Positions 14,987 through 56,390 of a stretch of 64,000 bases of DNA are shown in pieces; within the stretch, counting starts at the first letter, position 1, and each line of letters begins with the position of its first letter. A model generated the notes under the pieces. It did no database searches. It was not told the DNA's origin and worked only from the letters and a program-made list of their open reading frames with translations. The stretch comes from Stygiolobus caldivivus (lineage in GTDB: Archaea > Thermoproteota > Thermoprotei_A > Sulfolobales > Sulfolobaceae): the NCBI RefSeq assembly GCF_019704315.1, contig NZ_AP024597.1, positions 310,001 through 374,000 on the forward strand, read 5' to 3'. A program made the position numbers and the translations under genes.

Positions 14987-16678
14987 ATGCGTGCTTTATT
15001 AGTTGTTTTCCTCCTTATAACAGTCTTCATAACTGTACCATTCGCACACCTATCTTCGGCCCAACTCGTTAGCACTCAGCCAAAACCCGTAGGTCTGGTG
15101 TCTTATGGCATATGTCAAGATGGAAAAAACATTACGTATAACATAACTACTCAACAGATCATAGGGTATTTCAAAATACTTTCCCTCAAGGCTTTAAATT
15201 TGACCTCAACTTATCCCTATTACGCTAGTTTACAACTAGGTGGCACAGTACTGACACCTCACGGGATAGAGTGGGTACAAGAAAGTTTAGTATTCAACAC
15301 ACAAAATAATACTTTCTTCGTAGCGTCATATAATAACGGTGAACAAACTGTAAATTCCACTGTAATCTATTATACCTTACCTCTTGCAGGTTACCTGATA
15401 ATTTCGCTTATCAACAACTCTCCCTATACCCTCGTTAAATTTCAGTACGTTATAATACAGAACGGGTCTAGGTCACTCCCTCCACGAGTGATTACTCCTA
15501 TTACGGCAAAAATCCAAGGGAACGCTGAATTCATAGTGAATTACTATTTAAAGGGGAATGTAGAACTGGTCTTTGGCGGGTATAACTCAGTTACTAATTT
15601 TACTTCACTTTATTCCCAGCTGGCACTGTTTTATAACGAGAGCGGTCTAAGACCTTTTCCTTCGCTCTATAACTACGGTACTAATGCCACTGGGTCCTCA
15701 TCAGACCTTTTCACTATCCTCGGGTCTAACGATAACATAGTAGTAGCTGTGGGAAGCCCTAATTACGGTCTTATAACAAGTGACTACCAACCCCCAAAAG
15801 TCCCGTTAACATTTATAAACCAGTCTATTATTGTCAACGGTGTAGGGCTGTATAAGAACCAGTTATTTTACATAACGTCTCCCTATAACGTTACATTTCC
15901 TACAACCTTAAAGGTCGGAGAAAACGTTTTCCTCTACCTAGAAAAAGTAGACGTGGAAAACGAGGTTATCCCAAATAACGTTATTTTTCAGGTTTACAAC
16001 TTCACAGGTTACTACGACGAAAAGGTTATCTTTTCCTTACTCTATCCTAATTTCTCAATTGTAGGCTATAACTTGAGTATCAACTCGATAGTCACATTAC
16101 CCAACATAATTAACATAAGTAATAATGAAAGGTACGTTTTAACCAAACCTATTAATATCAGCGTTAACACGTCTATGCCCCTACTTGTAAACGTAAGCGG
16201 GCTCTACATTCCCCAGTATCTAGTAGAGATCGAATACCCTAACGGGAGTGTGATTACAAATTGGTTTGATAAGGGATCCGTGGTCACTCTTCCAAAATAC
16301 ATTTACGTTAGTCCCACCGAAAGGTATACCCTAGTAGGGCAAGACTACATTTACATTAATTCCTCCAATAAGGTGATTGCTCCTTACCAGACGGAATATA
16401 AAGTTTACTTAAATTACGGTAGCTTCTCTGTGACTTACTGGGTTAAAAATGGAGGGACAGTGAGCTTAAACGCATTTGTGCCCCCCTTTTACGAAGGAAA
16501 ATGGGAGGGAACCTATAATGCACCTGTCGGTGCTAAGGTAGTCGTAAACCAATACATACAAGAAACGCTCGTCCTTCGTCCTAATATACCCCTTATCTCA
16601 GTATTAGTTCTGATCTTAGTGTTGGTCTTTTTGGGAGGTCTGTTTTGGTGGAGAGTAAAAAAGGTGGCTAAGCAATAA
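14987..16678 (+). CDS. Thermopsin-like (peptidase A5-like) cell-surface protein
   Basis: A signal peptide (1-25, ending SSAQ) precedes a region resembling thermopsins: PKPVGLVSYGIC, IIGYFKILSLKA, YASLQLGG and IEWVQESLVFNTQNNT. Thermopsins are acid proteases secreted by Sulfolobales. Many Asn-X-Ser/Thr sites suggest heavy N-glycosylation. Beyond about residue 345 two or more repeat units follow (IPQYLVEIEYPNGSVITNWF...). A C-terminal membrane anchor (about 534-557) with basic end WWRVKKVAKQ closes the 563-residue chain. The same repeat type occurs in the protein at 21.8-23.6 kb. Protease activity is uncertain, since I cannot assign catalytic residues. Confidence 0.7.
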   Translation: MRALLVVFLLITVFITVPFAHLSSAQLVSTQPKPVGLVSYGICQDGKNITYNITTQQIIGYFKILSLKALNLTSTYPYYASLQLGGTVLTPHGIEWVQESLVFNTQNNTFFVASYNNGEQTVNSTVIYYTLPLAGYLIISLINNSPYTLVKFQYVIIQNGSRSLPPRVITPITAKIQGNAEFIVNYYLKGNVELVFGGYNSVTNFTSLYSQLALFYNESGLRPFPSLYNYGTNATGSSSDLFTILGSNDNIVVAVGSPNYGLITSDYQPPKVPLTFINQSIIVNGVGLYKNQLFYITSPYNVTFPTTLKVGENVFLYLEKVDVENEVIPNNVIFQVYNFTGYYDEKVIFSLLYPNFSIVGYNLSINSIVTLPNIINISNNERYVLTKPINISVNTSMPLLVNVSGLYIPQYLVEIEYPNGSVITNWFDKGSVVTLPKYIYVSPTERYTLVGQDYIYINSSNKVIAPYQTEYKVYLNYGSFSVTYWVKNGGTVSLNAFVPPFYEGKWEGTYNAPVGAKVVVNQYIQETLVLRPNIPLISVLVLILVLVFLGGLFWWRVKKVAKQ

Positions 16679-23570: not shown

Positions 23571-23794
23571 TTAGGTATTTGAGTAAGCTAAAAGTCATAT
23601 TAAACTTTTCCCATATATTTTATTTGTCGGAATAGGAAAAAAATTTAGAATACAGATACTATCTACTTACTTTAAATATAATAGACAGCTATAATTTTCT
23701 ATTATTCATAAACTATTAATATATTAAAATTATTCAAATAACAATTAAATTAATAGACCTCTACAATCAACTTTTTACAGTAAGATGTCTGAAA

Positions 23795-24448
23795 TTACAG
23801 TTTGCTAATAATACCTTTCACATAATCAAACTCTGTATTATGATAAACGATAATAATTGTTGAATTATCACCTAGAATAGAAGCTATAAATTCCTCATTA
23901 TCAAAAGCAGTGATAAACTTATTAATGAAGATATAAGGTGATGAAATAACTATAAGCTTTCCATTAGATACTTTAAGACAAGATACCAGAACTTGGTTAC
24001 TAAATTTGATCATTGGATTTCCTCCGATAATAGGGTGGGGATAAGGAAATAATAGGGTCCAATTTTTATATGAGAAGAGTAAGTAATCAGTGTCCATATA
24101 ATAATGAGTATTGCTTGTAATAATTATGTTACCGAATATTATAGGTAAGTTAAATTTTTTAAAGACTGTATTAAGTAAAGTATAATTCCCAGCTATGACG
24201 ACCGTCTTGCCTTCCTCTAAGAATCCTAGAATATTCAGCGAAGATAACTGTTTAAGATTTGGATAAAAGACTAGTAGAAGGACCGTGTTAGAGTTAGAAA
24301 TATTATGCACAATACTGAATAAGATAGATAGCCCTAATGGACCTTTATTATAAGGAGAAAATTGATTATTATCTGGTACTAGATACAATATAGATACCGA
24401 TAATATTAAAATTATCAGAATTAATGGAACTAGTTTCATCGTCTTCAC
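23795..24448 (-). CDS. Membrane-anchored DUF4350-like protein
   Basis: One N-terminal membrane segment (about 6-25) is followed by an extracytoplasmic domain. GPLGLSILFSIVHN, then TVLLLVFYPNLKQLSSLNILGFLEEGKTVVIAGNY resembles DUF4350, a GATase-like fold. DUF4350 often occurs with MoxR/DUF58/DUF4129 or transglutaminase sets in other prokaryotes, which are not seen here. ATG at 24448 overlaps the stop of the 613-residue gene (4 bp). The assignment is by pattern and should be taken as moderate. It is the last gene of the operon starting at 29147. Confidence 0.5.
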   Translation of the reverse strand: MKTMKLVPLILIILILSVSILYLVPDNNQFSPYNKGPLGLSILFSIVHNISNSNTVLLLVFYPNLKQLSSLNILGFLEEGKTVVIAGNYTLLNTVFKKFNLPIIFGNIIITSNTHYYMDTDYLLFSYKNWTLLFPYPHPIIGGNPMIKFSNQVLVSCLKVSNGKLIVISSPYIFINKFITAFDNEEFIASILGDNSTIIIVYHNTEFDYVKGIISKL

Positions 24449-26286
24449 CTAACCTTTAACTCTACTAGTTTAGTGTCTTTCCTCCTTTCCCTCCTATTCT
24501 TCTTCCTTATCTTCCTTAGTATATACAATAACATCACAGCTCCTAAAGGTATTATAAATGCTAAAGGGTTATAAATGGTAGTATAGGTACTCGCAACCTT
24601 TTTATAATAATAGTATTGAGGGTCACTTTCTACATATATTACTTGTTTACCATAAATTACGGTAAGCTTAGGCTTGATATGTACTGAAAAATAACCTTCA
24701 TTGTTTGTAATCGCTTCATATCTCTGGTTCCCTACAAATACGAATACCTTAATACCAGGTATCCCGCTACCGTTATATGCTGTAAGCCTCCCGCTTACCG
24801 TAAGTAGAGAAGGTATTATCCATTTGGACGAAGTATCAACAGTTAAGAACGAGTTATATAATCTAGGAATAAAGGAAATTTTTAACTGAGAAGGAGTTTC
24901 TATACCTTTAGGTAATAGGGTTAGGTTTAACGTATACGATGTATTTGTCAAATTATAAGGTAAGGGATAGGTTATTGTAAAGTTGCCAGATACTGTATAG
25001 ATTTTACTTTGATTATATAAATTTGCAATTAGTGTTCTATCAAGACCACTTGCATAGCCTTTTATAATTAAATACCCTCCCGGCTTTATTTCGCTGGTGC
25101 TAAGTATTTTAGCTATGAAGAGCGATTTTTGGAGATTAGAATGTAGTATGAAGGTAGAAATATTAGGTAAATAAACACTATTGCCTGAGTAAATGATCGT
25201 AAATGTCACATTTAATAAATATTTATTTAGAGTGAAATTAAAGGAAAATGTGTTGTTAATTACCGGTAAATGCAAAGAATAATTAAGATAATTAACTATT
25301 ACCGTTCCGTTTACTTCACCATAATAATTGACGGGTATTATTTCTCCTTTTATTGCATTTGTCTTATTAAAAAATAATATTTTGTTCTCTAGGTTTATAT
25401 AAATCGGAATATGGGAAGTATTGGGAAGGCTTGAAATTAAGTTATTAATAGTAGCTAGATTATTAATTATTTCATTTGCTTTAGTATAATTTGACTCTAG
25501 CTCAACTAGAAATTGTTGGTAGATTTTATCTAATGAAAAACGGGCTAAATATCTTGATGTATACTGTATCTTATTGTAGTATGTAGTAAGGTTCTCAAAA
25601 ATTTTTAATTCTTCAATGTATTGTTTATGAGAGTTCTCTATATATCCATGTTTAAGAGTCTGATAATAAATGTCACTTAAATTCTCTAAGTTCTTAAGAC
25701 AACTAGTAAAATTAAGTATTAAACTTCTTAGTTCAATGGACTGGTTTTGTAGATTAGAAGGTAATTCGACCTGGTATTGGAATGAAGAATTACGAAGCAG
25801 ATTCATATAATCGTAAAATAGAGGAGTAGTGTCCACTCGCGGATTTACAATATACTGTAGATTAGAAGAATATCCGGCTTGATTCAGTATGACCCCGCCG
25901 GTTATAGAGATAATTATTATCGATACTAATATAAAAGATAAAACCTCAGGTATTAGGACTAATTTATAATACCTTATAGCATAGAGGAATAGATAGGGAA
26001 TACCACCGACAAGTAATATATAGGCAGCTAAGTTATAAAACGACGAGTAAAGCAAAAGATGTAAAATTTCGATCAGACTACCAGAAATAAAAAGAATAAG
26101 AAGAACTAAGCTGAAATAAAGTTCGATTAGAGTGCTCTTTTTAGATAAATAGTAATAAACAATTGTAACCGAAATAATTATTGCGGCGATCTCCAGTAGA
26201 TGATATGAGAACATTAGCATTAGAGAATAAGCTATATTATCATGAAAATAAAGTTTTCGAAAACACATCTGTGTACCAGAATTCAT
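24445..26286 (-). CDS. Large membrane protein with coiled-coil and Ig-like/regulatory extracellular domains
   Basis: I do not recognise the family as a whole. About five N-terminal hydrophobic segments (25-160) lead to an extracellular helical part (about 175-290, LESNYTKANEIINNLATINN). Two or three beta-sandwich domains follow. One of them, near 490-560, looks like a carboxypeptidase-regulatory/Ig-like fold (GRLTAYNGSGIPGIKVFVF then NNEGYFSVHI). A final membrane segment (about 570-588) and a very basic cytoplasmic end (RKIRKKNRRERRKD) close it. Many sequons are present. It is coupled to the DUF4350-like gene and to the 229-residue gene 5 bp upstream. The three may form one envelope complex, possibly for handling an extracellular polymer. 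Confidence 0.6.
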   Translation of the reverse strand: MNSGTQMCFRKLYFHDNIAYSLMLMFSYHLLEIAAIIISVTIVYYYLSKKSTLIELYFSLVLLILFISGSLIEILHLLLYSSFYNLAAYILLVGGIPYLFLYAIRYYKLVLIPEVLSFILVSIIIISITGGVILNQAGYSSNLQYIVNPRVDTTPLFYDYMNLLRNSSFQYQVELPSNLQNQSIELRSLILNFTSCLKNLENLSDIYYQTLKHGYIENSHKQYIEELKIFENLTTYYNKIQYTSRYLARFSLDKIYQQFLVELESNYTKANEIINNLATINNLISSLPNTSHIPIYINLENKILFFNKTNAIKGEIIPVNYYGEVNGTVIVNYLNYSLHLPVINNTFSFNFTLNKYLLNVTFTIIYSGNSVYLPNISTFILHSNLQKSLFIAKILSTSEIKPGGYLIIKGYASGLDRTLIANLYNQSKIYTVSGNFTITYPLPYNLTNTSYTLNLTLLPKGIETPSQLKISFIPRLYNSFLTVDTSSKWIIPSLLTVSGRLTAYNGSGIPGIKVFVFVGNQRYEAITNNEGYFSVHIKPKLTVIYGKQVIYVESDPQYYYYKKVASTYTTIYNPLAFIIPLGAVMLLYILRKIRKKNRRERRKDTKLVELKVR

Positions 26287-26291
26287 GGTAA

Positions 26292-26981
26292 TTATTCTAC
26301 ACCGACTTTTACTTGTAGATCATTACCCACCATTTTTTCATCTTCAATAAAACTTATTTTATTATATTTTTCAGCGATTATAGATGCTAAAATTACTCCC
26401 TGAATATATCCCATTATTCCGTAGTATTTGTCAGGATCTGGGTTTTTCAATGTTACTAAGAAATCTTTCTCGGCAACTTTAGTTACCTTCACGTCCTGAG
26501 AAAAGTCATATAACTCTACTAGCGCCTTTCTCAGCAAAAACTCATCACTCTCAACAAATGTAATCCCCCTCTTTTTCATCTCCTTTATAATGAATGATGC
26601 AGGTGTTTCAATAAATATTCCCACTGAACCATCGTCAAAAACTGTGACTAAATCCCCAGCTATGTACTTTATCTTTATGGGGTACTTATTAGTCATCAGG
26701 AGACCATTAGCTCCCATAGATGATGGTGTGAACAATCTATAGTACTTTTCTCCGCCATAATACCTATAGATTTTTTCTAAATTCATATTAAACGTATCTA
26801 CGAGGAGATCTAGTTTTGAGTCCTTTGGATTTACAATATTCACTGAAAACGCTGACAGACCAACTAGGGTCATACCTAATCCAAGTATTGTAAATGGAGG
26901 ATAGTAAACTATAAACTGGTTTAGTACAATTAATACTATTCCTAAAGCGATTATATAGCTCCAAATAATATTATTATTCAT
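26292..26981 (-). CDS. Hypothetical membrane protein with cytoplasmic alpha-beta domain
   Basis: Two N-terminal hydrophobic segments (about 8-24 and 30-48) precede a 175-residue domain. The domain ends IQGVILASIIAEKYNKISFIEDEKMVGNDLQVKVGVE, loosely like the closing part of V4R-type small-ligand domains; that similarity is only a shape impression. It overlaps the upstream GT4 gene by 8 bp and precedes the 613-residue gene by 5 bp, so it is surely co-transcribed with both. Function unknown. Confidence 0.55.
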   Translation of the reverse strand: MNNNIIWSYIIALGIVLIVLNQFIVYYPPFTILGLGMTLVGLSAFSVNIVNPKDSKLDLLVDTFNMNLEKIYRYYGGEKYYRLFTPSSMGANGLLMTNKYPIKIKYIAGDLVTVFDDGSVGIFIETPASFIIKEMKKRGITFVESDEFLLRKALVELYDFSQDVKVTKVAEKDFLVTLKNPDPDKYYGIMGYIQGVILASIIAEKYNKISFIEDEKMVGNDLQVKVGVE

Positions 26982-28095
26982 TCTTCAGTTTATTGTAAAT
27001 TCCGTCTAATAAGCTTATTACCTTGTCCCAGCCCATGACTTCCTTTTTACCCTCTTCTCCCAACTTTCTAGCGAGTTCTTTATCATTTATGATCTTATTT
27101 ATAGCAAATGCCAAATCCTTAGGATCATTAGGTTTAACCAGTATACCATTAATACCGTTCCTAATCCTATAAGTAAGACTACCTACACTAGATGCCACTA
27201 CGGCTTTACCCCTGCTCCACGCCTCGCTTAAAACTAAAGAGAAGGCTTCAACATAATCAGAAATACTGGGGATTACCACGACACTTGAGCCGTCAATTGC
27301 GCTTATTTTCTCTTCTTCACTTAAATATCCTAGAAAGATACATTTTTCACCTACTCCTTTTTTGCGAGATAATAGCTTATAATACTCCACGTTACCGGGT
27401 CCAATAAATACTACTTTTGTGTTCAAAAATCTACAACTCTCTATAAGAATATCTACTCCTTTTAGCTTATGTAACCTTCCTATATATAGAATATAATCTT
27501 CCCCCTTTAGTTTCTCTTTTTTAAAATTTTCACTATAGGGAAAATTAAAGTAAAGTTCGTCAATTCCGTCTGGAACCAAATAAGGATCCTTATTGTACTT
27601 CTCTCTTAGAATCTTTCTATCTCTCTCATTCTTCACTATTAACGCGTCACTTAGAGTTAAAACTTTAGAGATAGTATATCTTGAATAGAAGTGTGACAAG
27701 GTTCTGATAATTTTATTAGGATGATCCTTTAGAGAGTCTACAGCCATTAACGTGAAAACCTTTTTTGCTTTAAACCTACTAGAATTCTCTAGCAATTTAA
27801 TAGAGAAGAGAGAGTTTTGAGAATGAAAATGTATAATGTTAGATTTAGCCAGGATTTCATCGTGTCCTAAGGGGTAAGTTAAGTCAGGCATGTTAAAAAA
27901 TCTGAGGCTTCTTATCTGCTTTACAGTAAACTCTTGACCTCTTATTTGCCCAGAATTTTTGTCAGAAGTAACGACGTAGACTTCATATTTTTTTGCTTGT
28001 CTCCTAGCAGTCTCATATATTACCTTTTCTATCCCGCCGACTACTGGGTAAAACGTATGGGTTACATGGGTTAGTATTTCTTTTGCTTTTTCCAA
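26974..28095 (-). CDS. Glycosyltransferase, GT4 (GT-B fold)
   Basis: The N-terminal Rossmann half shows THTFYPVVGGIEKVIYETAR, the glycine-rich acceptor loop of GT4 enzymes. The C-terminal donor half has YILYIGRLHKLKGVDILIES and an E-x7-E element in EAFSLVLSEAWSRGKAVVAS. It moves a sugar from an NDP-sugar to a membrane glycolipid on the cytoplasmic side. Donor and acceptor are unknown. The gene overlaps the upstream GT2 by 25 bp and the next membrane gene by 8 bp. Confidence 0.88.
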   Translation of the reverse strand: MEKAKEILTHVTHTFYPVVGGIEKVIYETARRQAKKYEVYVVTSDKNSGQIRGQEFTVKQIRSLRFFNMPDLTYPLGHDEILAKSNIIHFHSQNSLFSIKLLENSSRFKAKKVFTLMAVDSLKDHPNKIIRTLSHFYSRYTISKVLTLSDALIVKNERDRKILREKYNKDPYLVPDGIDELYFNFPYSENFKKEKLKGEDYILYIGRLHKLKGVDILIESCRFLNTKVVFIGPGNVEYYKLLSRKKGVGEKCIFLGYLSEEEKISAIDGSSVVVIPSISDYVEAFSLVLSEAWSRGKAVVASSVGSLTYRIRNGINGILVKPNDPKDLAFAINKIINDKELARKLGEEGKKEVMGWDKVISLLDGIYNKLKNE

Positions 28096-29147
28096 GCCAG
28101 TACCTCACCTCTCATAGCATATAGCTGGGAAAGAATGAGAAAGAACTGATTACTTAACCAAGCCCTTAGAAGCTTATTAATGGGAGGTAGAAAGAGCCCT
28201 ACTAATGCCAGAGCTATAAGAACTGCAAAGAGAACCAGGTTTGATAATCCTATAAATACCAGACCTAAAATCAATAGCCAAGGGTTAATTAGGTGGAGAA
28301 AAGTTTCTTCCAAGAATATTTTCCTGAACTTAGCGTTATTGCTCTTTATCACTTTACCTAAAAATCTTATAAAGTGCCTTATAAGATGAGAACCTCTCCT
28401 GATTTTCCATGAAAAGTAATCAAACCCCTTAGGTACTATCTCGGTAGCGATTACCTTGTCGCTACATATTGCCCTATATCCCTTTAATGAGACCAAAGTG
28501 GCAATAGTACTGTCGTCTGCACCCGCATTAGGTATTTCCTCGGGTTTTAATACATCTTTTCTGAATGCTGTAAATTCTCCGTGAAATATAGGTGTCGAGT
28601 ATATCGAAGATTCACCTAGCCTTATTATATTATAAAAATCTCTATAGTTATTCTCTAACTGCGTTGTAGCTTTTTTAATACAGCTTACTGCTCCTACATT
28701 ACCTCTAAGGATTTTCACCGCATCTATTACAGAACCTTCCCAAAAGGCATCAGCGTCGGTTATTATAACAATATTGTTAGACGCACTTTTTATACCTTCT
28801 CGTACTGCATATATTTTACCCCTTCTTTTATCCTCTCTGATTAACCTTACGTTTTTTAGATTAAGGGTAGCTATTTCCTTTTGTATTTCCTCATATGTAC
28901 CATCTGTACTGGAATCAACTATTATAATTTCCAATTTGTCTAATGAATAATTGTCTAATACATTGCGTAGTTTTCTCCTTATATTATCCCGTTCATTATA
29001 AGTAGGTATTATAACCGAAATTGACGGATGAATGTCTTCATCGCCTTGGGGTAAATTGCAGCAGTGCTTTTTGATATAGCTATAATAGTACGCAGGTTCA
29101 GCGAAGTGAAAAGCCAGTAACCCTAATCCTAAGTATTCTAGTAGCAT
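28071..29147 (-). CDS. Membrane glycosyltransferase family 2
   Basis: A hydrophobic N-terminus is followed by the GT-A domain: VIIPTYNERDNIRRKL, IIVDSSTDGT, and the DxD motif TDADAFW. A GADDSTIA acidic motif comes next, then RRGSHLIRHF before two to three C-terminal membrane segments (about 272-322). This layout fits chain-extending or lipid-linked GT2 enzymes. It heads a five-gene operon running down to 23795, with a TATA-like AGTTTAATATTTAAG about 30 bp before the ATG. Product unknown. Confidence 0.85.
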   Translation of the reverse strand: MLLEYLGLGLLAFHFAEPAYYYSYIKKHCCNLPQGDEDIHPSISVIIPTYNERDNIRRKLRNVLDNYSLDKLEIIIVDSSTDGTYEEIQKEIATLNLKNVRLIREDKRRGKIYAVREGIKSASNNIVIITDADAFWEGSVIDAVKILRGNVGAVSCIKKATTQLENNYRDFYNIIRLGESSIYSTPIFHGEFTAFRKDVLKPEEIPNAGADDSTIATLVSLKGYRAICSDKVIATEIVPKGFDYFSWKIRRGSHLIRHFIRFLGKVIKSNNAKFRKIFLEETFLHLINPWLLILGLVFIGLSNLVLFAVLIALALVGLFLPPINKLLRAWLSNQFFLILSQLYAMRGEVLAWKKQKKY

Positions 29148-29405
29148 ATCTTTTAGTCTACCTTATACTAGCTTAAATATTAAACTTTCTTCCTTTATTG
29201 AGAGAAATGATAACTTATGGCAGAAGAATATGTAGAATCTATATGTCTTAAAAGGCGTAAATAGAGTAGAAAATAGTGTAATGAACTATATTTTATAACA
29301 CTCCTTTAGTAGATCTATTTATGATATAATAAGATATATAACATAATATAGTTCTACGGAAAGTTTGAAAACGAATGTCATCTATAATTTAACTTGTCAT
29401 ATGTT

Positions 29406-30550
29406 ATGAACGGCACCTCAGTTTTTCTCTTAATTCCCTCTTTAGCACGCACTAGCGAGTCTAAAGTAGCTTTAGCTTTCATGAAATTGTTTAAAGAATA
29501 CGGTGTATCTGACTAACTGGCGTGTGTTTTAAAATCCAAGATTTATCGGACGAATCACTAAGTAAGGATTATCCAGAATATTTTAGAATCATAAAGAACA
29601 GAAATATAAAATTGATAAATGGATCAGTATTCTCTGGGATTGTAGATAGTATAGTGTTGAAAATCATTAAGAATTTAAAACACATAGATCTATTGGTTAA
29701 CCTTTATTATACTGAAATACAATTGGGACTTGATCTCTCCTACATACGTGATCTATCCTTCGTTTATATTCACTAACAGAGATAGTATAAGGAATAACTA
29801 TAAGTTAATAGCAAAAGCTTATTTCGATATAAATTATAAAATATTAACTAAAATTGTAAAAGCGAAAAGATTAATATGTAGCTCCAAATACATAAGGAAT
29901 GTAGCTAAGAGTACAATAGATCAAGAATGCGACGTTGTATATCCACCTATACTAGAAGACGAACTAGACCTCAACTCTGATTACGAGAAAGAAAACCTTG
30001 TAGTAGGAGTCGGGAAATTTGTAGAACCTAAACATTGGGATGAATTTATAGAAATAGCTAAAAAAGTAAAAGAAAAAAGAAGCGATGTAGAGTTTAAAAT
30101 AATAGGCGGACTGAACGAGGCTCGTTCGTCTATGCCTTATTTCAGAAAACTTCAAGAATTATCAAAGGGTAAAGTAGAGTTATTGACAGACGTATCAGAG
30201 AAGGAAAAGTGGGATATACTGAAAAGAGCTAAGGTCGTACTTCATTGCATGAGGAATGATAACGTAAGAATGATAACGTAAGTCTAGGGGTAGCCAAGGC
30301 GATGTCTGTAGGAGCTGCCCCAGTAGTCTATAAGTCTACCGGATCGTGGATGGACATAGTAGACGAAGGAAAATTAGATTTTGCATATGAAAACATAGAA
30401 CAAGGTGCCAAATACGTACTAGATTTAATAGAAAATTATGACTTATACTATAAAATGAAAACTCTATCTCTGAATAAGGCAAGAGAATTTACGTATTCTA
30501 CATTTAAATCTAAAGTTATTCCCGTTATTGATTCTTTGCTTAATAAATAA
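29406..30550 (+). pseudogene. Broken GT4 glycosyltransferase gene
   Basis: Pieces of one GT-B protein are spread over three frames. The start MNGTSVFLLIPSLARTSESK ends at TAA 29514. The next piece (about 29516-29730) reads LSDESLSKDYPEYFRIIK. From about 29730 a third frame reads ISPTYVIYPSFIFTNRDSI and then the donor half (NLVVGVGKFVEPKHWDEFIE). At 30255-30282 a 14-bp tandem duplication shifts the frame and creates a stop. Removing one copy restores CMRNDNVSLGVAKAMSVG and the rest up to 30550. At least three lesions mean the gene is dead. It is otherwise similar in type to its GT4 neighbours. Confidence 0.85.
30255..30282 (+). repeat. 14-bp tandem duplication that causes a frameshift
   Basis: AATGATAACGTAAG occurs twice without spacer (30255-30268 and 30269-30282) inside the broken GT4 gene. 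A 14-bp insertion shifts the frame; deleting one copy joins the two flanking frames cleanly. It looks like replication slippage. Confidence 0.9.
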
Positions 30551-35846: not shown

Positions 35847-36089
35847 CTAAATTATACCTATAAACTGGAAGAAATAATATAAAGAAAGTACGACGAGAAA
35901 TCCGTTCAAACCTATGATAATATAGTTAGCGGGTTTTGGAAAAGGATAAAATAATAACTCTACTAAAATACTGCCTATTGTAAAAAGGATCAGATATATC
36001 CTTATTTCTGTTAAACCACTCGCACTTAAGATAGTTGAAATAATAGTATATACGATAGCTAACGCTACCGGATAATATTTGTAATTCAT
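35847..36089 (-). CDS. Small membrane protein, 80 residues
   Basis: It consists of nearly only hydrophobic segments (about 7-24, 28-48 and 55-78) with a short PFPKPAN turn. It lies 6 bp after the DUF1616-like gene stop and 9 bp before the GT-C-like gene, so it is co-transcribed and may be an accessory subunit. No family recognised. Confidence 0.6.
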   Translation of the reverse strand: MNYKYYPVALAIVYTIISTILSASGLTEIRIYLILFTIGSILVELLFYPFPKPANYIIIGLNGFLVVLSLYYFFQFIGII

Positions 36090-36095
36090 ATAGCC

Positions 36096-36608
36096 TCACC
36101 CTCTTATAGTAGCATAAATTGCAAATAATTCTGTTATTATTATTCCAGATACTAAAATTGTTAATTGATCAAGACCTATAGTAAAATTGAGTAATAGGCC
36201 CACTAAGACAATAATAGCAAAACTAATACCTAATGATAGACCGAATTTGCTCAGATTGTTAAGTTCACCTATATCGTCTTTATAGAGCGAGAGAAGTAAA
36301 GAATATCCGGGTAGGAACGTAATATACGGAAAACCTATTAGCATACGAATGATCATGAAAGAGTCGGATGGATATAGTAGAGTTAGAAGAAGTAATACTG
36401 ATAAAATGTGGACCATTACTAGACTGAATTTAAAACCACCTTTGGTCTTATAGTTCTCTCTTATTATTTTTATTGCTTCTTCCTTAGAATAACCTTGTTT
36501 AATAAGTTCCTCAACTGCCTCTTCCACCGTCAATCCTATAAGCTCTTTGGTTATACTTTGAGTCATTACTATAAGCGAGTTGTTTAGATGGTATATAATC
36601 TTTTCCAA
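36096..36608 (-). CDS. DUF1616-like membrane protein, N-terminal half only
   Basis: A cytoplasmic helical start (EEAVEELIKQGYSKEEAIKI, similar to a UBA-like or SHOCT-like helical module) leads to four hydrophobic segments. They carry IIRMLIGFPYITFLPGYSLLLSLYKDD, the DUF1616 signature, and NLSKFGLSLGISFAIIVLVGLLLNF. Complete DUF1616 proteins continue with an extracytoplasmic beta domain, which is missing here and found in the gene upstream (36842-37513). ATG at 36566 (MTQSITKE) is an alternative start. DUF1616 genes often stand near surface-polysaccharide loci; the function is unknown. Confidence 0.65.
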   Translation of the reverse strand: MEKIIYHLNNSLIVMTQSITKELIGLTVEEAVEELIKQGYSKEEAIKIIRENYKTKGGFKFSLVMVHILSVLLLLTLLYPSDSFMIIRMLIGFPYITFLPGYSLLLSLYKDDIGELNNLSKFGLSLGISFAIIVLVGLLLNFTIGLDQLTILVSGIIITELFAIYATIRG

Positions 36609-36841: not shown

Positions 36842-37513
36842 TTATAAAGACACATTAACTAGTAATTGTGTGAATACTCCAGTATACCTAAAAGAAGATG
36901 AAGAGATATCATAATAGTATAGAAAGAACTGAACCTTATACTGTCCTTGATCCTTTATGGAAAAAGGTATCAATTGCTCCCATTCACCTTTATATTGGAC
37001 AATATTATAGTATGTGCCTATAGTAATATTGCTCGATGAGTTAACAAGGTAAACCTTAATCATGAATAACTCTGGTTTTCCCTCATAATTTTTTACCAAA
37101 ACAATTACACTCGTATTTTCTCCCGGAATCAGACTCGTAGGATAGTTTCCTAGCGAGCCTTGAGCATTAAGTAGTAACATGATGGGGAATTGCTCTTTAG
37201 GCTGTACTTGGAGTACATAATACCCAAATGAGAAAAGACCGGCTAAAATTATCAGTCCTAGAAAAATACCGAGAAACATACTTGTATTACTATTCTTTTT
37301 AACGGACATAATTTTAGATCTTTTGTGGATGGAATACCATAAATTATTGTAAAAGTTTGTTATTTTATCTCTATATATAAGCACTACCATAGCGAAAATA
37401 GGCGGGATTAAGAACACTAAGTAGAAAAAATCATGGATAAGTTGGTATTGATGCTCATAAGCATAATATACTTCTTTATACTGTTGTATTAACTGCTGTA
37501 GATTTTGCTCCAT
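36842..37513 (-). CDS. Membrane protein carrying the DUF1616 C-terminal extracytoplasmic domain
   Basis: There are two membrane segments (about 28-47 and 79-101) with a basic loop between them. A beta-rich domain of about 115 residues follows. IMLLLNAQGSLGNYPTSLIPGENTSVIVLVKNYEGKPELFMIKVYL is the pattern of the C-terminal half of DUF1616 proteins. It overlaps the upstream GT2 gene by 38 bp and is separated by 233 bp from the gene with the matching N-terminal half. The two may work as one split unit, interacting with the glycan outside the membrane. Confidence 0.6.
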   Translation of the reverse strand: MEQNLQQLIQQYKEVYYAYEHQYQLIHDFFYLVFLIPPIFAMVVLIYRDKITNFYNNLWYSIHKRSKIMSVKKNSNTSMFLGIFLGLIILAGLFSFGYYVLQVQPKEQFPIMLLLNAQGSLGNYPTSLIPGENTSVIVLVKNYEGKPELFMIKVYLVNSSSNITIGTYYNIVQYKGEWEQLIPFSIKDQGQYKVQFFLYYYDISSSSFRYTGVFTQLLVNVSL

Positions 37514-38462
37514 CTTTACTCACTCTTGGCTTTTTAAATAAAAAGCTGATCGAATAACTTACTATTGATATATATATCATAAATGGCGAGAGAATAGTAT
37601 ATTTTGAAAATTTATATTGGCTACAAGTTTCCTTATTTACCTTAAGGTAAAGTCCTAGATAAGATAATAGCAATATAAGACTAAGAATAATGAAGTAATG
37701 TAGAAATATAGCTATGGCAATTACAATAACGCTTAGTAGAAATATAGCGACACGGCTTATTGAATCTTTTATTATCCACTTCTCACCCGTATAATAGTTA
37801 TAAAGTTTTGCACCTTCAGCAGCTTCCATGTTCTGCTTAACGTAAGCCCTGATACTCTCTCTGTGGAAATGATATATCTTGTCTTCATAATTAACATAAT
37901 AAGTATAACCTGCCCTCTTAAGTTTGAATAGTAGTTCATCCTCTTGCATATAGTTCATGTTCTCGTTGAAACCACCAACTTTTAGTACAGCGTCTCTTCT
38001 ATAAATAGCTCCATTTGCAGTTGTAAACCCTTTGCATAGGTATGTGTCTATAACTTTTTGAATAAATTTAGATTCCGGTGGAGAAAAAACTTTCGTAAAT
38101 ACGACTCCTACTTTATTATCTTTTTCCATTATATTTACGGCATTTCTAACCCAACCTGGGGTCGCTATCATTGCATCGCTATCCAAGAAAGCAACGTACT
38201 TCCCTCTGGCTTCTAATATGCCCCTATTGTATGCTACCCCTCTTCCCCTTCTACTTTCGATGATTATTCTAATGTTGTATTTTGACGTAAATCGTTTCAC
38301 AATATCTAGTGTTCCGTCGGTCGAATTTCCATCAACTACTATAATTTCGAAGTTGCTATAGTCAAGTTTATCGATAGACATAAGTGTATTCTCAATTGTT
38401 TTAGCTGAGTTTAGTGTCGGGATTACAATAGTAACCAATGGTTCTACGTTTCTGTCATTCAT
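37476..38462 (-). CDS. Membrane glycosyltransferase family 2
   Basis: The GT-A motifs are in order: TIVIPTLNSAKTIENTLMSI, IVVDGNSTDGTLDIV, GRGVAYNRGILEA, the DxD-type FLDSDAMIATPGW, and MQEDELLFKLKRAGYTY. C-terminal hydrophobic segments lie near 232-275 and 293-308. It is first in the cluster that runs to 34143 and is divergent from the GT4 at 38570. Sugar donor and acceptor unknown. Confidence 0.86.
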   Translation of the reverse strand: MNDRNVEPLVTIVIPTLNSAKTIENTLMSIDKLDYSNFEIIVVDGNSTDGTLDIVKRFTSKYNIRIIIESRRGRGVAYNRGILEARGKYVAFLDSDAMIATPGWVRNAVNIMEKDNKVGVVFTKVFSPPESKFIQKVIDTYLCKGFTTANGAIYRRDAVLKVGGFNENMNYMQEDELLFKLKRAGYTYYVNYEDKIYHFHRESIRAYVKQNMEAAEGAKLYNYYTGEKWIIKDSISRVAIFLLSVIVIAIAIFLHYFIILSLILLLSYLGLYLKVNKETCSQYKFSKYTILSPFMIYISIVSYSISFLFKKPRVSKDGAKSTAVNTTV

Positions 38463-39945: not shown

Positions 39946-40752
39946 TTAATAAAGAACGTAATTGAAGAAATTAATAAAGCAGATATGGATTATGAACTAA
40001 TCTTGGTTGATAACTACAGCAAAGATAATACGTATGGCATTATGCAAAAGTTTGCTGGAGATAATGTAAGGGTGTTTAGGTATAAGGGAAGGAAAGGAGC
40101 TGCAAGGAATTTTGGGCTCCAACAGTCCAGTGGTAACTATGTTACGGAGTTGGATTCAGATCAAATGTATAATAACTTTGAGATATTTTTAGGAGATTAT
40201 TTTAGAAAATACTCTTCTTTTGGAGTTAAAATAGGTAGAAGCTCGTTTCCAATTATAGCGCCAAGACATCTTCTAATTGAAGTTGGAGGATGGAGAAATT
40301 TCCAGTTCACTGAAGATTGGGATTTATAGTTTAGGTTAACAGATAATTGTAAATATCTATATTTACCAGGGTACAAGAACATATTCGGGGAACATATAAG
40401 GACGTATAAAAATGGTTAGCCTTTCTTTTTTAAAATAACACAGACAATACTAAAGTATAGGGACTTATATTCTGTTGGATTACCCGTTAATTTAACAGAT
40501 GAGAAATCTAAAATTTTATATCATATTGGAAAAATACTATACTATATTAACGGAGAGAAAAGAATTACTTACAATTGCGTTGAATATATCCAAAGGCCTT
40601 TAGAGCCCTATACTGGATGGGGTGTTAATTGGGATCTACAATTTCACTATAATCTAATGAAATATGAAGAAGATATGTGCAATAATAAAGAAATATTTTC
40701 TGAGACTCTATCGTTGATGACAAACTATTTTCAAAAAAGTAAATATGTTTAA
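39946..40752 (+). pseudogene. Broken GT2 glycosyltransferase with two in-frame TAG codons
   Basis: One frame stays open from 39946 to 40752 except for TAG at 40327 and at 40417 (counted from the frame). It encodes NVIEEINKADMDYELILVDN, YSKDNT, RKGAARNFGLQQSSGNYV, LDSDQMYNN and VGGWRNFQFTEDWDL. After the stop the family pattern simply goes on (FRLTDNCKYLYLPGYKNIF). The N-terminal strand is missing: upstream is a TAA in frame and a partial match in another frame (SPVIGNVINKE). The first stop sits where Tyr or another aromatic is usual after EDWDL, so a point mutation is likely. I judge it a pseudogene. Confidence 0.75.
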
Positions 40753-42333: not shown

Positions 42334-43440
42334 ATGAAAGTAGCATTATTCGCTTATGCTGGAGTAGATAGGAGTTGGAGTCTAGGTAGACTTACATACT
42401 TATTTTATACCGGACTTAATAGCCTCGGAGTAGATACATATTTGGTTTCCAAATACAATATAAACCAATCTGGGTTAAAATATATTAAGATAAAAAGATA
42501 TCCCAAAATAGGTAAAAAAGACATTCTCACTGATGTATTTTCTACGTATTCTACGGTAAAGAAACTTAAACCCAACGTTTATCATCTACTATATCCTCAT
42601 GTATCATCACTCCTTTCATTACCTTTCCCTTCATCTTACTCCAAAGTTCTTACAATTCATGATCTGAAACCATTAATAGTCAAAGAATTTCTTGATAGAA
42701 AAGAAAAAACAAATATATCAATTTTGAAGTTTTCGCTAATGTTTATCGATAGAGTAATAGCTATTTCTCGCTCAACAAAAGAGCAAATAGTTCAACTCCT
42801 AGGGGTTGATGAAGATAAAGTAAGCGTAGTTTACAACCCTTTAGATCCTATTTTTAGAAAATTAAACGAAGACGAAATAGTTGATATAAGACAAAAATAT
42901 GGTAAATTTATCTTTAATCTCTCCCGCTTTGATAAGCTAAAAAATCCAGTAAACTTGATTAAATCATTTAAATATATAGCTTCTTGTGATGATAACATAA
43001 GACTTCTTATCGTAGGCGCTTTCTGGCACTACGGTAAAAGTTTAATTGAGAACGAATTAGGTAAATATAAGGATAGAGTGGATATAATAGAGAGAATTGA
43101 AAATGAGACCTTGGTAAAAATATATAATGCAAGTGAAGCATTTCTATTTCCTTCAATTTATGAAGGATTTGGTATGCCTATAATCGAAGCCATGGCATGC
43201 GGAACACCAGTAATAACTTCTAATAGATGGTCTATGAAAGAGCTGGCTGAGGGGGTAGGAGAGTTAGTCGAACCCGAAGACCCTGTAGACATCGCTGAGA
43301 AGACATGTAAAGTAATTAGTGATAAGGGCTATCGTGATCAGCTGGTGAAGAAAGGACTGGAAAAGGCTAAACAGTTTAACTATTTGGATCTTTCGAAAGA
43401 ACTTTTAAATGTATACGAGATAACGGTAGGTAAAAAATAA
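42334..43440 (+). CDS. Glycosyltransferase, GT4 (GT-B fold)
   Basis: It has 368 residues. The N-terminal half has KVALFAYAGVDRSWSLGRLTYLFY and VLTIHDLKPLIVKEF. The donor half has FIFNLSRFDKLKNPVNLIKSF and EGFGMPIIEAMACGTPVITSN with E-x7-E, close to the mannosyl- or rhamnosyl-type GT4 enzymes. TTTTTATAAGTTAC near 42295-42308 is a probable TATA box. The TAA shares its last base with the ATG of the flippase gene (TAATG), so translation is coupled. Confidence 0.88.
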   Translation: MKVALFAYAGVDRSWSLGRLTYLFYTGLNSLGVDTYLVSKYNINQSGLKYIKIKRYPKIGKKDILTDVFSTYSTVKKLKPNVYHLLYPHVSSLLSLPFPSSYSKVLTIHDLKPLIVKEFLDRKEKTNISILKFSLMFIDRVIAISRSTKEQIVQLLGVDEDKVSVVYNPLDPIFRKLNEDEIVDIRQKYGKFIFNLSRFDKLKNPVNLIKSFKYIASCDDNIRLLIVGAFWHYGKSLIENELGKYKDRVDIIERIENETLVKIYNASEAFLFPSIYEGFGMPIIEAMACGTPVITSNRWSMKELAEGVGELVEPEDPVDIAEKTCKVISDKGYRDQLVKKGLEKAKQFNYLDLSKELLNVYEITVGKK

Positions 43441-44966
43441 TGTCAGATGAATTAGAGAAATTTGGGAAGAATCTCCTCAATAACTATGTAAACTTATTGC
43501 AAGGTAGGTTCATTTCTCACGCGATAGGTGCTATAGGTAGCTTCCTTGTTATAAGGATATTACAGCCCCAACTTTACGGGGAACTCTCTATAGCGATGAG
43601 CTTCGTATACTTATTAAACATTGTAGGTAATTTGGGCGTGAATACTGCAGTTACTAAGTTTGTAGCTAAGTATAAGGTGGAGAGAATAGAGAATGCATAT
43701 AAGGTCATATCTTCTGGAATGCTTTTTGACATAATATTCGGAGCAAGTTTATCGTTAATTGCATACTTCATATCCCCTTTATTTTTATTATATGTTTACA
43801 ACAAGCCTGAAGTAATTCCATACGCCAAGTTTGCTAGTCTGTATCTGATCTTCTATTGGTCTTTTAGCTCTGTATTCTCAGGGCTTTTAGGATTAGAACT
43901 TACTAAAGATAATAGTAAACTGTGGATAATACATTATTCATCACAAACATTTTTCAGTATAAGCCTAGCTCTAATCTGGGATAAAATATATGGGGTAATA
44001 TTAGGTTATGCTTTAGGATACGGCGCTGCCACAATTTACGGAGTTTTTCTGCTCATAAAACACCGCGTTTTAAACAGAACCACATTACCCTCTTTACTGT
44101 TTATAAAGGAAATGATAAAGTTTGGATTGCCTTTAATAGTGCCGTCGATTCTAAGCAACGTAGGAGGTGCCTACACAAATTCCATAATAAATCGTTTTTT
44201 AAGTATTATAGAACTGTCGAATATTAATGCAACTTCAAAAATAGGATATGTATTTGACACAATACTTAACCCTCTAAGTTATGCCATACAACCTATCTTA
44301 GCCAAAATAGATTACTCTCAAAGAGAAAGAATGGTAAACGTAATTAATGAACTTACTAAAGTAAACAGCATATCTCAAATTCCTTTAGTGTTTTTTGTAA
44401 TAGGATTCTCGTACTCCATAATTGATATAATAGCGGGGCCCTCTTATACTTTAGCACCTCGTTACTTACAATTTTCTATGATATCACCTATTATTACCAC
44501 ACTTGTAGGTTTTCCTATACTAAATTCTGTCATACTATTTAGAGGAGATTCCAAGACAGTGTCTAAAATATCGTCCATAAATACTGTCTTCTATGCGATT
44601 TTATTAAGTGTTCTAATACCTTTATTAGGACCACTAGGATATTTTTTAAGTAGTTGGATTAGTTGGATTCCAGGCTATATTGTGGCGCTAATAAATGTAA
44701 AATCACTCTATCCTAATTATAAATTTCCCATTGGGACTATTTCGAGGATATACTTAATTCCGTCATTACTTTTCCTACCTTTTGTATTCATTCCTGTTCA
44801 TTTGCCTTACTTGATCGTGGTCGGGTTAGGACTACTCTTTATTAATTATAAACTGTACTATAAAATAGGCCTTATCAGTAAAGGTGAAGCAAAACTATTA
44901 ATCACAAGCATAGATAATTCTGGGCTCAGAGTAATTTCACCTTTAGTTAAGTTCATTCTATCCTAA
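43440..44966 (+). CDS. Wzx-like oligosaccharide flippase (MATE/MVF superfamily)
   Basis: The 508-residue polytopic protein with about 14 hydrophobic segments begins FGKNLLNNYVNLLQGRFISHAIGAIGSFLVIRILQPQLYGELSIAMSF-like, the classical polysaccharide-exporter start with a conserved LxPxxYG turn (RILQPQLYG). Such proteins turn lipid-linked glycans from the cytoplasmic to the outer face. It is coupled to the GT4 gene in front. It is the only flippase in the island, so it probably serves the glycan made by the surrounding transferases. The 3' end overlaps the opposing GT4 by 9 bp. Confidence 0.85.
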   Translation: MSDELEKFGKNLLNNYVNLLQGRFISHAIGAIGSFLVIRILQPQLYGELSIAMSFVYLLNIVGNLGVNTAVTKFVAKYKVERIENAYKVISSGMLFDIIFGASLSLIAYFISPLFLLYVYNKPEVIPYAKFASLYLIFYWSFSSVFSGLLGLELTKDNSKLWIIHYSSQTFFSISLALIWDKIYGVILGYALGYGAATIYGVFLLIKHRVLNRTTLPSLLFIKEMIKFGLPLIVPSILSNVGGAYTNSIINRFLSIIELSNINATSKIGYVFDTILNPLSYAIQPILAKIDYSQRERMVNVINELTKVNSISQIPLVFFVIGFSYSIIDIIAGPSYTLAPRYLQFSMISPIITTLVGFPILNSVILFRGDSKTVSKISSINTVFYAILLSVLIPLLGPLGYFLSSWISWIPGYIVALINVKSLYPNYKFPIGTISRIYLIPSLLFLPFVFIPVHLPYLIVVGLGLLFINYKLYYKIGLISKGEAKLLITSIDNSGLRVISPLVKFILS

Positions 44967-53450: not shown

Positions 53451-54221
53451 TTAAGTTACGAGCTTTCTTATTGATTCAATATAATTATCTATTGTACCTA
53501 AATCGTAAACTATATCTACTTTTATTGCCTTAAACTTCTTACCTTTTCTTATTAGACCTTTTATGCCGTCAGTCAGTTGGAGTTCATCATTATACTTAAC
53601 TTGTTTTAATTCACCAAAGATATCCTTGTCAAAAATATAGTACGGAACTATAACTAAATTAGATTTGGGTTCCTTTGGCTTTTCTTCAACATCGATAACA
53701 AATCCTTCATCATCAACAACTACTACACCATAAGGTCTTGGATCCCGGACAGTGGTAACTAAAAATGAATTAACAACCATAGAAGATATAGGTATTGTAG
53801 ATAGAATAGTATCCGCAGCAACTACTAGAAATTCTCCCTGGACGAAGGGTTCTGCCCTTAACACCGCGTCACCAAAACCTCTAGGTTCTGGCTGGTTAAC
53901 AAAGGCTATTCTACTATCCTCTATTTTCCGATAAAATTGCCTTAAGTAATCTGCTTGGTTTACCTTACCCTTAGATTCGAGATAATTAATAAAGTCGTAG
54001 TCAGGCGTAAAGTGATCCTCAATAACTCTCTTACCTCTTCCGACTACTATTATGAAATCCCTTATTCCGATATCGTATAGTTGCTCAAAAATAATTTGAA
54101 TTATAGGCTTAAATTGCCCCTTAAAGGGAATAGGAAACATTTCCTTAGGAATTTCTTTAGATGCAGGAAGCAATCTAGTTCCAAGACCAGCTGCAGTAAT
54201 TACTGCATGAATATTAATCAC
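53451..54221 (-). CDS. galU: UTP-glucose-1-phosphate uridylyltransferase
   Basis: The signature AVITAAGLGTRLLPASKEIP near the N-terminus with Lys26 (KEMFPI) is that of nucleotidylyltransferases of the GalU type. VNQPEPRGFGDAVLRAEPF and VVAADTIL follow, and VDVEEKPKEPKS is typical of GalU. It makes UDP-glucose from UTP and glucose 1-phosphate and releases PPi. The 256-residue length is on the short side for GalU but normal for archaeal forms. It overlaps the Ugd gene by 8 bp and is the last gene of the UDP-sugar operon. Confidence 0.87.
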   Translation of the reverse strand: MINIHAVITAAGLGTRLLPASKEIPKEMFPIPFKGQFKPIIQIIFEQLYDIGIRDFIIVVGRGKRVIEDHFTPDYDFINYLESKGKVNQADYLRQFYRKIEDSRIAFVNQPEPRGFGDAVLRAEPFVQGEFLVVAADTILSTIPISSMVVNSFLVTTVRDPRPYGVVVVDDEGFVIDVEEKPKEPKSNLVIVPYYIFDKDIFGELKQVKYNDELQLTDGIKGLIRKGKKFKAIKVDIVYDLGTIDNYIESIRKLVT

Positions 54222-55443
54222 CCCTATATAGTCCTATTGCCCTGAACTTCTTTCTTGACATCTTGTTGGGGTCAAGGACTCTTCTTCCATCTAGCACAGC
54301 CTTATCTTGAAGCATTTGTTCTATTCCTCTGAACTCCTCCCACTCTGTAGCTATTATCACGCCATCTGCCACCTTTACACACTCTTCTTTACTGCCCACC
54401 ATTTTTACTAAAGATGTTTTAGCCTTGGGATCGTATGCCAAGACATTTGCCCCCTCATCAGACAATAGTTTAGCGATTTTTAGTCCTACACTTTCCCTAG
54501 TATCATCCGTATTGGGCTTAAAAGCAATGCCTAAAATACAGACTGTTTTACTATTAAGACCACCTAATAGCTCTTTCATTATCTTTACTGCCCTTTTAGG
54601 CCTTTCTTCGTTAACTTTTATAGTAGCTTCTATAATCTTTAACTCCTCTCCCAGCTCTCTAGCAAATGACACAAAGGCTAGAGTATCCTTGGGAAAACAT
54701 GAACCCCCGTAACCTAAGCCAGCATTTAAGAAATAAGGGGCTATCCTCTTATCTAGTCCTATAGCCTTAGCAATAGTATTGACATCACAGTTGGGTATCA
54801 CCTCACATAGGTTTGCAATTTCATTGATAAATGAAATTTTAGTCGCTAAGAAAGAGTTAGCAGCGTACTTGATCATTTCAGCTTCTTCAATGGAAGTCCT
54901 TAAAACAGTACTCTTTGTAAATGACCATAAGTTCTCGATCATATCTCCTGAGGCTTTATTGTCGCTCCCGATCACTATTCTGTCTGGCTTGGCGGTGTCT
55001 ACCACAGCGTTTCCTTCCCTTAGAAACTCCGGGTTAGACACTACTTCCCTTTCTACTATCTGTTTTACTTTTCTACTTGTACCGGGGACTACAGTACTTT
55101 TAACGACTACAATAGTATCTCTCTTAAGATAAGGTTTCATAGCCTTAGCAGCGTCTAAGACATAACCTATATAGTTTTTCCCTTCTACAGTAGGGGTGGC
55201 AACTGTAATAAAAACAACGTCCGCCTCCTTTAACATTGAATAATCCGTGGTAAATGTAAATCTCTCTTTATTTTTTTGGAGAAGTTCGTCTAAACCTGGT
55301 TCATAGATGGGGGAACGATTACACTGCAGACCTTTAACCTTATTTTGGTCGATGTCAACTCCGACTATTTCATGCCCTTGATCTGCTAGCACTGCGCCCG
55401 TAACTAATCCTACAACACCTAAGCCCACAATACCTATCTTCAT
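54214..55443 (-). CDS. ugd: UDP-glucose 6-dehydrogenase
   Basis: It oxidises UDP-glucose to UDP-glucuronate with two NAD+. The N-terminal NAD-binding motif is GIVGLGVVGLVTGAVLADQGH. SPIYEPGLDELL, VVVKSTVVPGT and NPEFLREGNAV are family blocks. The catalytic Cys249 lies in GYGGSCFPKD, and the C-terminal domain has LGIAFKPNTDDTRES. At 409 residues it is normal in length. ATG overlaps the UXS stop (4 bp), so the three UDP-sugar genes are translated together. Confidence 0.93.
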   Translation of the reverse strand: MKIGIVGLGVVGLVTGAVLADQGHEIVGVDIDQNKVKGLQCNRSPIYEPGLDELLQKNKERFTFTTDYSMLKEADVVFITVATPTVEGKNYIGYVLDAAKAMKPYLKRDTIVVVKSTVVPGTSRKVKQIVEREVVSNPEFLREGNAVVDTAKPDRIVIGSDNKASGDMIENLWSFTKSTVLRTSIEEAEMIKYAANSFLATKISFINEIANLCEVIPNCDVNTIAKAIGLDKRIAPYFLNAGLGYGGSCFPKDTLAFVSFARELGEELKIIEATIKVNEERPKRAVKIMKELLGGLNSKTVCILGIAFKPNTDDTRESVGLKIAKLLSDEGANVLAYDPKAKTSLVKMVGSKEECVKVADGVIIATEWEEFRGIEQMLQDKAVLDGRRVLDPNKMSRKKFRAIGLYRGD

Positions 55444-56366: not shown

Positions 56367-56390
56367 TAACAATTTCTATCTTTGACAAAA

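Follow-up and report, generated by a model that had tools for sequence, protein, structure and literature searches.

Five minus-strand genes form a compact unit

We analyzed a 64,000-nucleotide stretch of the genome of the archaeon Stygiolobus caldivivus (Sulfolobaceae; assembly GCF_019704315.1, contig NZ_AP024597.1, positions 310,001 to 374,000), here called the window, around a tight minus-strand unit of five genes. These encode a GT2 and a GT4 glycosyltransferase, a membrane protein with a predicted cytoplasmic domain (TM229), a 613-amino-acid (aa) protein with immunoglobulin (Ig)-like domains (IG613), and a DUF4350 protein. The open reading frames (ORFs) were recovered where the initial annotation had placed them, and its description of the genes as overlapping or a few bases apart was correct: GT2 and GT4 overlap by 25 bp, GT4 and TM229 by 8 bp, and IG613 and DUF4350 by 4 bp, with a gap of 5 bp between TM229 and IG613. 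They are not chance ORFs, since orthologues are kept in six other genomes with ratios of nonsynonymous to synonymous substitution (dN/dS) of 0.11 to 0.26. The intergenic gaps are too small for promoters outside coding sequence, and an identical promoter-like element (AAAGTTTAATAT) precedes both GT2 and the gene that follows the unit (encoding REP574, an outside repeat protein). The five genes are therefore likely transcribed as one RNA.

A Pfam search gave no match for TM229 and only weak, Ig-type matches for IG613. The latter is predicted to have four N-terminal helices, a long outside region of coiled and Ig-like segments, one C-terminal helix, and a basic tail of 20 aa. It contains 20 N-glycosylation sequons (7.8 in shuffled sequences), all within residues 131 to 572, and REP574 contains 27 (9.2 in shuffled sequences). 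The excess of sequons in these two proteins and their lack in TM229 fit the predicted topology. An AlphaFold2 (AF2) model of TM229 had a predicted local distance difference test score (pLDDT) of 87, and its residues 55 to 228 were weakly similar to YslB/Bet3-TRAPP/H-NOX structures (best E = 4.2e-3; TM-scores, 0.3 to 0.5). Given how weak these fold matches are, we treat them as a lead only. The soluble domain resembled BcsD of bacterial cellulose synthesis even more weakly, too weakly for any claim of relatedness.

Homology to the DUF4350-MoxR-DUF58-DUF1616 operon

In 2015, Makarova, Galperin and Koonin predicted an arCOG01314 "putative secretion system" composed of DUF4350, MoxR, vWA, Ig-like, pfam07760, and 2-3-helix proteins (PMC5898192). 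In a genome from another family (G054; G numbers denote compared genomes), one operon encodes the C- and N-terminal halves of DUF1616, a TM229 homologue, an 84-aa protein, an Ig protein, DUF4350, MoxR (AAA_3, E = 3.5e-52), and DUF58, and a GT2 orthologue adjoins it divergently. The same operon is present in a member of the Sulfolobaceae (G066), inside a glycosyltransferase cluster of its own. A class-wide search with a TM229 profile, combined with inspection of gene neighborhoods, showed that further genera of the Thermoproteia also have TM229-S80-IG-DUF4350-MoxR in this order, usually joined by DUF58 (S80 being a small membrane protein of 80 aa in the window). Most MoxR-bearing loci keep this order; in some genera, the genes are rearranged or split (G046), or the locus is truncated at a contig end.

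We compared the window-type proteins with the sets from MoxR-bearing operons by hhalign. All four families matched their counterparts: TM229 (98.9%; E = 2.7e-17), IG (99.6%; E = 3.2e-24), DUF4350 (99.6%; E = 1.9e-24), and S80 (93.1%; E = 3.2e-7). Mismatched pairs of membrane proteins, used as a control, reached at most 3%. In addition, a hidden Markov model (HMM) built from the Ig proteins of MoxR-bearing members alone matched IG613 (E = 3e-11) and its six orthologues (3e-11 to 6e-27 overall), and direct HMM matches were obtained for the S80 copies in G146 and G155 (1e-7 and 4e-7). These comparisons show by homology that TM229, IG613, and DUF4350, together with S80 and two DUF1616 halves encoded at a distance of 7 kb within the window, correspond to the membrane and outside parts of the DUF4350-MoxR-DUF58-DUF1616 machine. 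The initial annotation had put the system forward as a candidate undescribed one; because the trio belongs to the operon predicted in 2015, that label does not stand.

Joint absence of MoxR, DUF58, and two cytoplasmic tails

IG613 was found in 7 of the 197 genomes of the order, the window genome included (hereafter, the holders). The initial annotation had remarked that MoxR and DUF58 partners were missing at the locus, and this extends to whole genomes: in the window genome and the six other holders, there was no match to DUF58 (PF01882) and no strong AAA_3 match that would indicate MoxR. The best AAA_3 matches in the window genome (E of about 1e-6) belong to kinds of AAA protein that all 31 Sulfolobaceae genomes have.

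The membrane proteins differ correspondingly between the two types. Past its last helix, the Ig protein has a C-terminal tail of 20 to 28 aa in all seven window-type proteins versus 75 to 151 aa in all 12 of the MoxR-bearing type, where several tails match DUF4129 (two over the cutoff, at 9.9e-8 and 8.7e-6, and others more weakly). The DUF4350 protein is 217 to 244 aa long in 7/7 window-type genomes and 270 to 335 aa in the MoxR-bearing type; its C-terminal helix was detected in 10 of 12 of the latter and in none of the seven former, which also have no tail. At the other end, IG613 and its orthologues have three to four N-terminal helices versus one in MoxR-bearing Ig proteins. A fusion with S80 or its 84-aa counterpart was ruled out as the source of the extra helices (hhalign probability, 0.1 to 0.4%), and S80 has its own gene within the cluster.

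MoxR-DUF58 and the cytoplasmic parts of the Ig and DUF4350 proteins are thus jointly absent in seven Sulfolobaceae, and the missing parts presumably dock to the MoxR-DUF58 motor. G046 offered a check that could have failed. Its locus keeps both tails and has no MoxR, so MoxR was expected elsewhere in the genome, and it was indeed found there together with DUF58. MoxR-DUF58 pairs also occur in G050 (2347041-2349282) and G179 (contig C11, 12170-14448). Their operon is a different one: it encodes other membrane proteins, and neither an Ig nor a DUF4350 protein was detected in it. We ruled these pairs out as members of this system; they represent a second MoxR system in the Sulfolobaceae.

Two conserved blocks within a polysaccharide cluster

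Across the 197 genomes, TM229 occurred in the same seven as IG613. G066 additionally has a decayed copy, and G054 yielded a distant match. The presence of DUF4350 had to be scored with our own profiles, as PF14258 was too insensitive a marker (only 2 of 31 genomes reached E = 0.001); ORFs outside the window were called mechanically. Two blocks were stable in all seven holders, GT2-GT4-TM229 and IG613-DUF4350-REP574. The operon drawn by the initial annotation is thus not a fixed five-gene unit: the genes are contiguous in three holders (the window genome, G072, and G167) and are split in the other four, with the blocks 17 to 27 kb apart inside the same cluster. In G167, REP574 overlaps DUF4350 by 4 bp.

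The cluster around the unit spans about 21.8 to 58.4 kb of the window (some 36 kb) and holds at least 14 intact glycosyltransferases by Pfam, a Wzx-like flippase, and UDP-sugar enzymes (Table 1). The five genes are therefore two conserved blocks within a larger cluster, not a self-contained five-gene system. The suggested link between the membrane trio and polysaccharide synthesis was upheld, as all three proteins are encoded within one glycosyltransferase cluster in 7/7 holders, and the 8 Sulfolobaceae genomes (of 31) that have the GT2 orthologue are precisely those that have DUF1616. These genomes are not independent of one another. Even so, the distribution inside genera is patchy (for example, the other genome from the genus of the window has none), so shared ancestry alone is insufficient to explain this co-occurrence.

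Between G146 and G155, dN/dS was 0.106 for TM229, 0.257 for IG613, and 0.204 for DUF4350, similar to the values for GT2 (0.165) and GT4 (0.142). The three membrane genes are under purifying selection, which indicates that the ATPase-free form is in use.

G066 carries a decayed window-type remnant on contig 1 (about 1,890,000-1,891,400), with a TM229 copy interrupted by two TAG stops and a fragment of REP574. Its complete MoxR-bearing system lies 1.7 Mb away, and the arrangement looks like one type replacing the other.

TABLE 1 Features of the window discussed in the text (numbers after Pfam accessions are E values)
Feature	Position in window	Strand	Basis
GT2 glycosyltransferase, two membrane helices at the C terminus; opens the unit	28071-29147	-	Pfam PF00535, 8.8e-23
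GT4 glycosyltransferase	26974-28095	-	PF00534, 3.3e-36; after GT2 in 7/7 holders
TM229, two N-terminal helices and a predicted cytoplasmic alpha/beta domain	26292-26981	-	hhalign to the MoxR-bearing 2-3-helix protein family
IG613, homologue of Ig-DUF4129 proteins without the DUF4129-type tail	24445-26286	-	hhalign and HMM match
DUF4350 protein, 217 aa, N-terminal anchor only	23795-24448	-	PF14258, 3e-8, 34.6 bits (cutoff, 30.4)
REP574, signal/anchor, outside repeats with GWYN motifs, C-terminal helix	21846-23570	-	Gene after DUF4350 in 7/7 holders
AAAGTTTAATAT, promoter-like B recognition element (BRE)/TATA, about 40 bp ahead of GT2	29177-29188	-	Exact copy, one of two in the window
AAAGTTTAATAT, promoter-like element, about 40 bp ahead of REP574	23597-23608	-	Second exact copy in the window
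POLY564, 564-aa polytopic protein with a conserved RDELGH loop	34143-35837	-	Motif seen in alignment
S80, 80-aa three-helix protein	35847-36089	-	Counterpart of the small protein encoded between the TM229 and Ig genes of MoxR-bearing operons (hhalign)
DUF1616 N-terminal half, polytopic	36096-36608	-	PF07760, 5.7e-13
DUF1616 C-terminal half, Ig-like, membrane	36842-37513	-	PF07760, 5e-15
Second GT2, heads the DUF1616-S80-POLY564 block	37476-38462	-	PF00535, 2.6e-30; block conserved
Wzx-like flippase	43440-44966	+	Polysacc_synt PF01943, 3.3e-18
Nucleotidyltransferase, UDP-sugar dehydrogenase, and epimerase	53451-56372	-	PF00483, 6.2e-28; PF03721, 9.9e-56; PF01370, 1.5e-54

Glycosyltransferase genes near MoxR-bearing loci

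Outside the window type, we asked how often the machine lies near glycosyltransferases. A GT2-family gene (PF00535) was located within 10 kb of 6 of the 10 loci of the MoxR-bearing type from the wider Thermoproteia, versus 1.06 expected (P of about 2e-4), the expectation being derived from the GT2 density in the same genomes with approximate genome sizes and, for fragmented genomes, upper-bound densities. Membrane genes found mostly without glycosyltransferases, which the initial annotation had named as counterevidence, are not what the Sulfolobaceae show. The GT2-orthologue subfamily itself is close to loci of the MoxR-bearing type in G054, G173, G201, and G020, and 2.4 kb separate a GT2 orthologue from the detached MoxR-DUF58 pair of G046. 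In most of 20 further loci, the GT2 orthologue is inside a glycosyltransferase cluster; machine parts are nearby in at least 6 of these 20, with most of the machine present in G041, G007, and G152.

Proposed function

We consider it moderately probable that the ATPase-less machine in this sugar-polymer cluster is a complex for the assembly or anchoring of surface polysaccharide. The cytoplasmic GT2 and GT4, with the other transferases, would build a lipid-linked glycan, probably from uronic-acid-type UDP sugars, and the Wzx-like protein would flip it. The Ig-like, DUF1616, and DUF4350 domains may then assemble on the outer face into a complex for receiving, joining, or anchoring the glycan on or beneath the S-layer, with TM229 as its possible contact on the cytoplasmic side. 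MoxR/VWA pairs such as NorQ-NorD remodel a dedicated target (PMC9976466). Where present, MoxR-DUF58 might similarly use ATP to remodel the complex via the tails, and in the window type the complex would work without this step. POLY564, for which Pfam gave no match, is a candidate GT-C-type transferase or polymerase; its AF2 model (pLDDT, 48.5) was unusable for judging a GT-C fold. It was ruled out as an orthologue of the polytopic protein in the G054 and G066 loci, with which it is not alignable (1.1%).

A wider and more tentative proposal is that the deep-rooted archaeal DUF4350-MoxR-DUF58-DUF1616 "secretion system" is in general a surface-polysaccharide assembly machine, of which the Sulfolobaceae form is a naturally ATPase-free version that shed its motor and docking tails together. 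We hold this generalization to be less likely than not.

Several points speak against a polysaccharide role. A GT2-family gene is missing from the 10-kb surroundings of 4 of the 10 loci of the MoxR-bearing type, and many GT2 orthologues belong to glycosyltransferase clusters with no machine nearby; the link is therefore frequent, not strict. The proximity statistic counts any GT2-family gene, treats genomes as independent, ignores phylogeny, and uses upper-bound densities for fragmented genomes. No MoxR was found in G173 (84% complete), in which the short contig also holds no IG or DUF4350 gene. To regard POLY564 as an outside transferase is a guess from a motif. Finally, Makarova, Galperin and Koonin favored protein secretion (PMC5898192).

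Under that last explanation, the cargo of the machine would be adhesins or S-layer-like proteins such as REP574, which the sugar genes would merely glycosylate. DUF4350 is similar to GldG, a component of the gliding/type IX secretion apparatus, most parts face outward, and REP574 is a sequon-rich outside protein and a conserved neighbor of DUF4350. However, no REP574 match was found in the MoxR-bearing loci examined, whereas GT2-family genes recur there, and TM229, with its cytoplasmic domain, stays in the GT2-GT4 block in 7/7 holders, apart from the outside proteins in four of them. We regard secretion as unlikely.

The known remodeling of dedicated targets by MoxR/VWA pairs (PMC9976466) would also suit a chaperone or quality control system for membrane proteins, with MoxR-DUF58 acting like NorQ-NorD on what happens to be a glycosyltransferase or flippase complex. 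The pair in G046, which adjoins a GT2 orthologue and not the membrane parts, is in line with this. The membrane parts nevertheless persist without MoxR under purifying selection in seven genomes and thus have a role of their own, which makes this explanation improbable. That the three genes are relics, decaying after the loss of MoxR-DUF58 and riding along in a polysaccharide island, as the broken copy in G066 might suggest, is very hard to credit, as they are intact in 7/7 holders with glycosyltransferase-like dN/dS values and the decay in G066 accompanies a second, MoxR-bearing copy.

Comparison with known systems

The window shares with the arCOG01314 system DUF4350, the DUF1616/COG4743 halves, an Ig-like membrane protein, and small membrane proteins of two to three helices. 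Unlike that system, it has no MoxR (COG0714), DUF58/vWA, DUF4129-type Ig tail, or DUF4350 C-terminal helix, its genes are split into blocks within a glycosyltransferase cluster, and we propose polysaccharide assembly rather than protein secretion. What looks new is the ATPase-less variant, not the system; in a limited search of the open-access literature, we found no earlier description of it. Bacterial MoxR-DUF58-DUF4129 operons combine the same ATPase/vWA pair and DUF4129-type cytoplasmic domain as the MoxR-bearing archaeal relatives, and the window type has none of the three.

Bacterial Wzx/Wzy-type export clusters likewise contain many glycosyltransferases, a Wzx-like flippase, and UDP-sugar enzymes. 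No Wzy or Wza/Wzc was recognized among the genes of the window cluster that were searched, which differs in having an Ig/DUF1616/DUF4350 complex of archaeal type. Among archaea, the saci_1904-saci_1927 cluster of Sulfolobus acidocaldarius (cited in PMC9549778) is a candidate for exopolysaccharide synthesis that, like the window cluster, is large and combines glycosyltransferases with membrane proteins. The S. acidocaldarius control genome had no DUF1616 or DUF58 match, so the machine is probably absent there.

The recurrent GT2 neighbor points to a concrete, testable class of substrate for the machine. That the ATPase pair was lost along with two cytoplasmic tails yields a prediction of the proteins that MoxR-DUF58 touches, a general question for MoxR ATPases. 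If the machine does handle polysaccharide, its ATPase-free form would show which parts make up the polymer-handling core.

Additional observations

Adjoining the five-gene operon, a decayed GT4 glycosyltransferase gene (29522-30550, plus strand) is split into three ORFs (29522-29776, 29730-30281, and 30302-30550); its relatives are intact at 371 to 373 aa. A second glycosyltransferase remnant is probably represented by a 114-aa ORF (39985-40329, plus strand) that matches part of a 282- to 287-aa protein in G155, G146, and G072. The idea of a fusion between a 198-aa protein and the DUF1616 C-terminal half gave a weak hhalign match (19%). Upstream of the cluster, a 563-aa thermopsin-family protein is encoded at 14987-16678 on the plus strand (PF05317, E = 7.8e-18).

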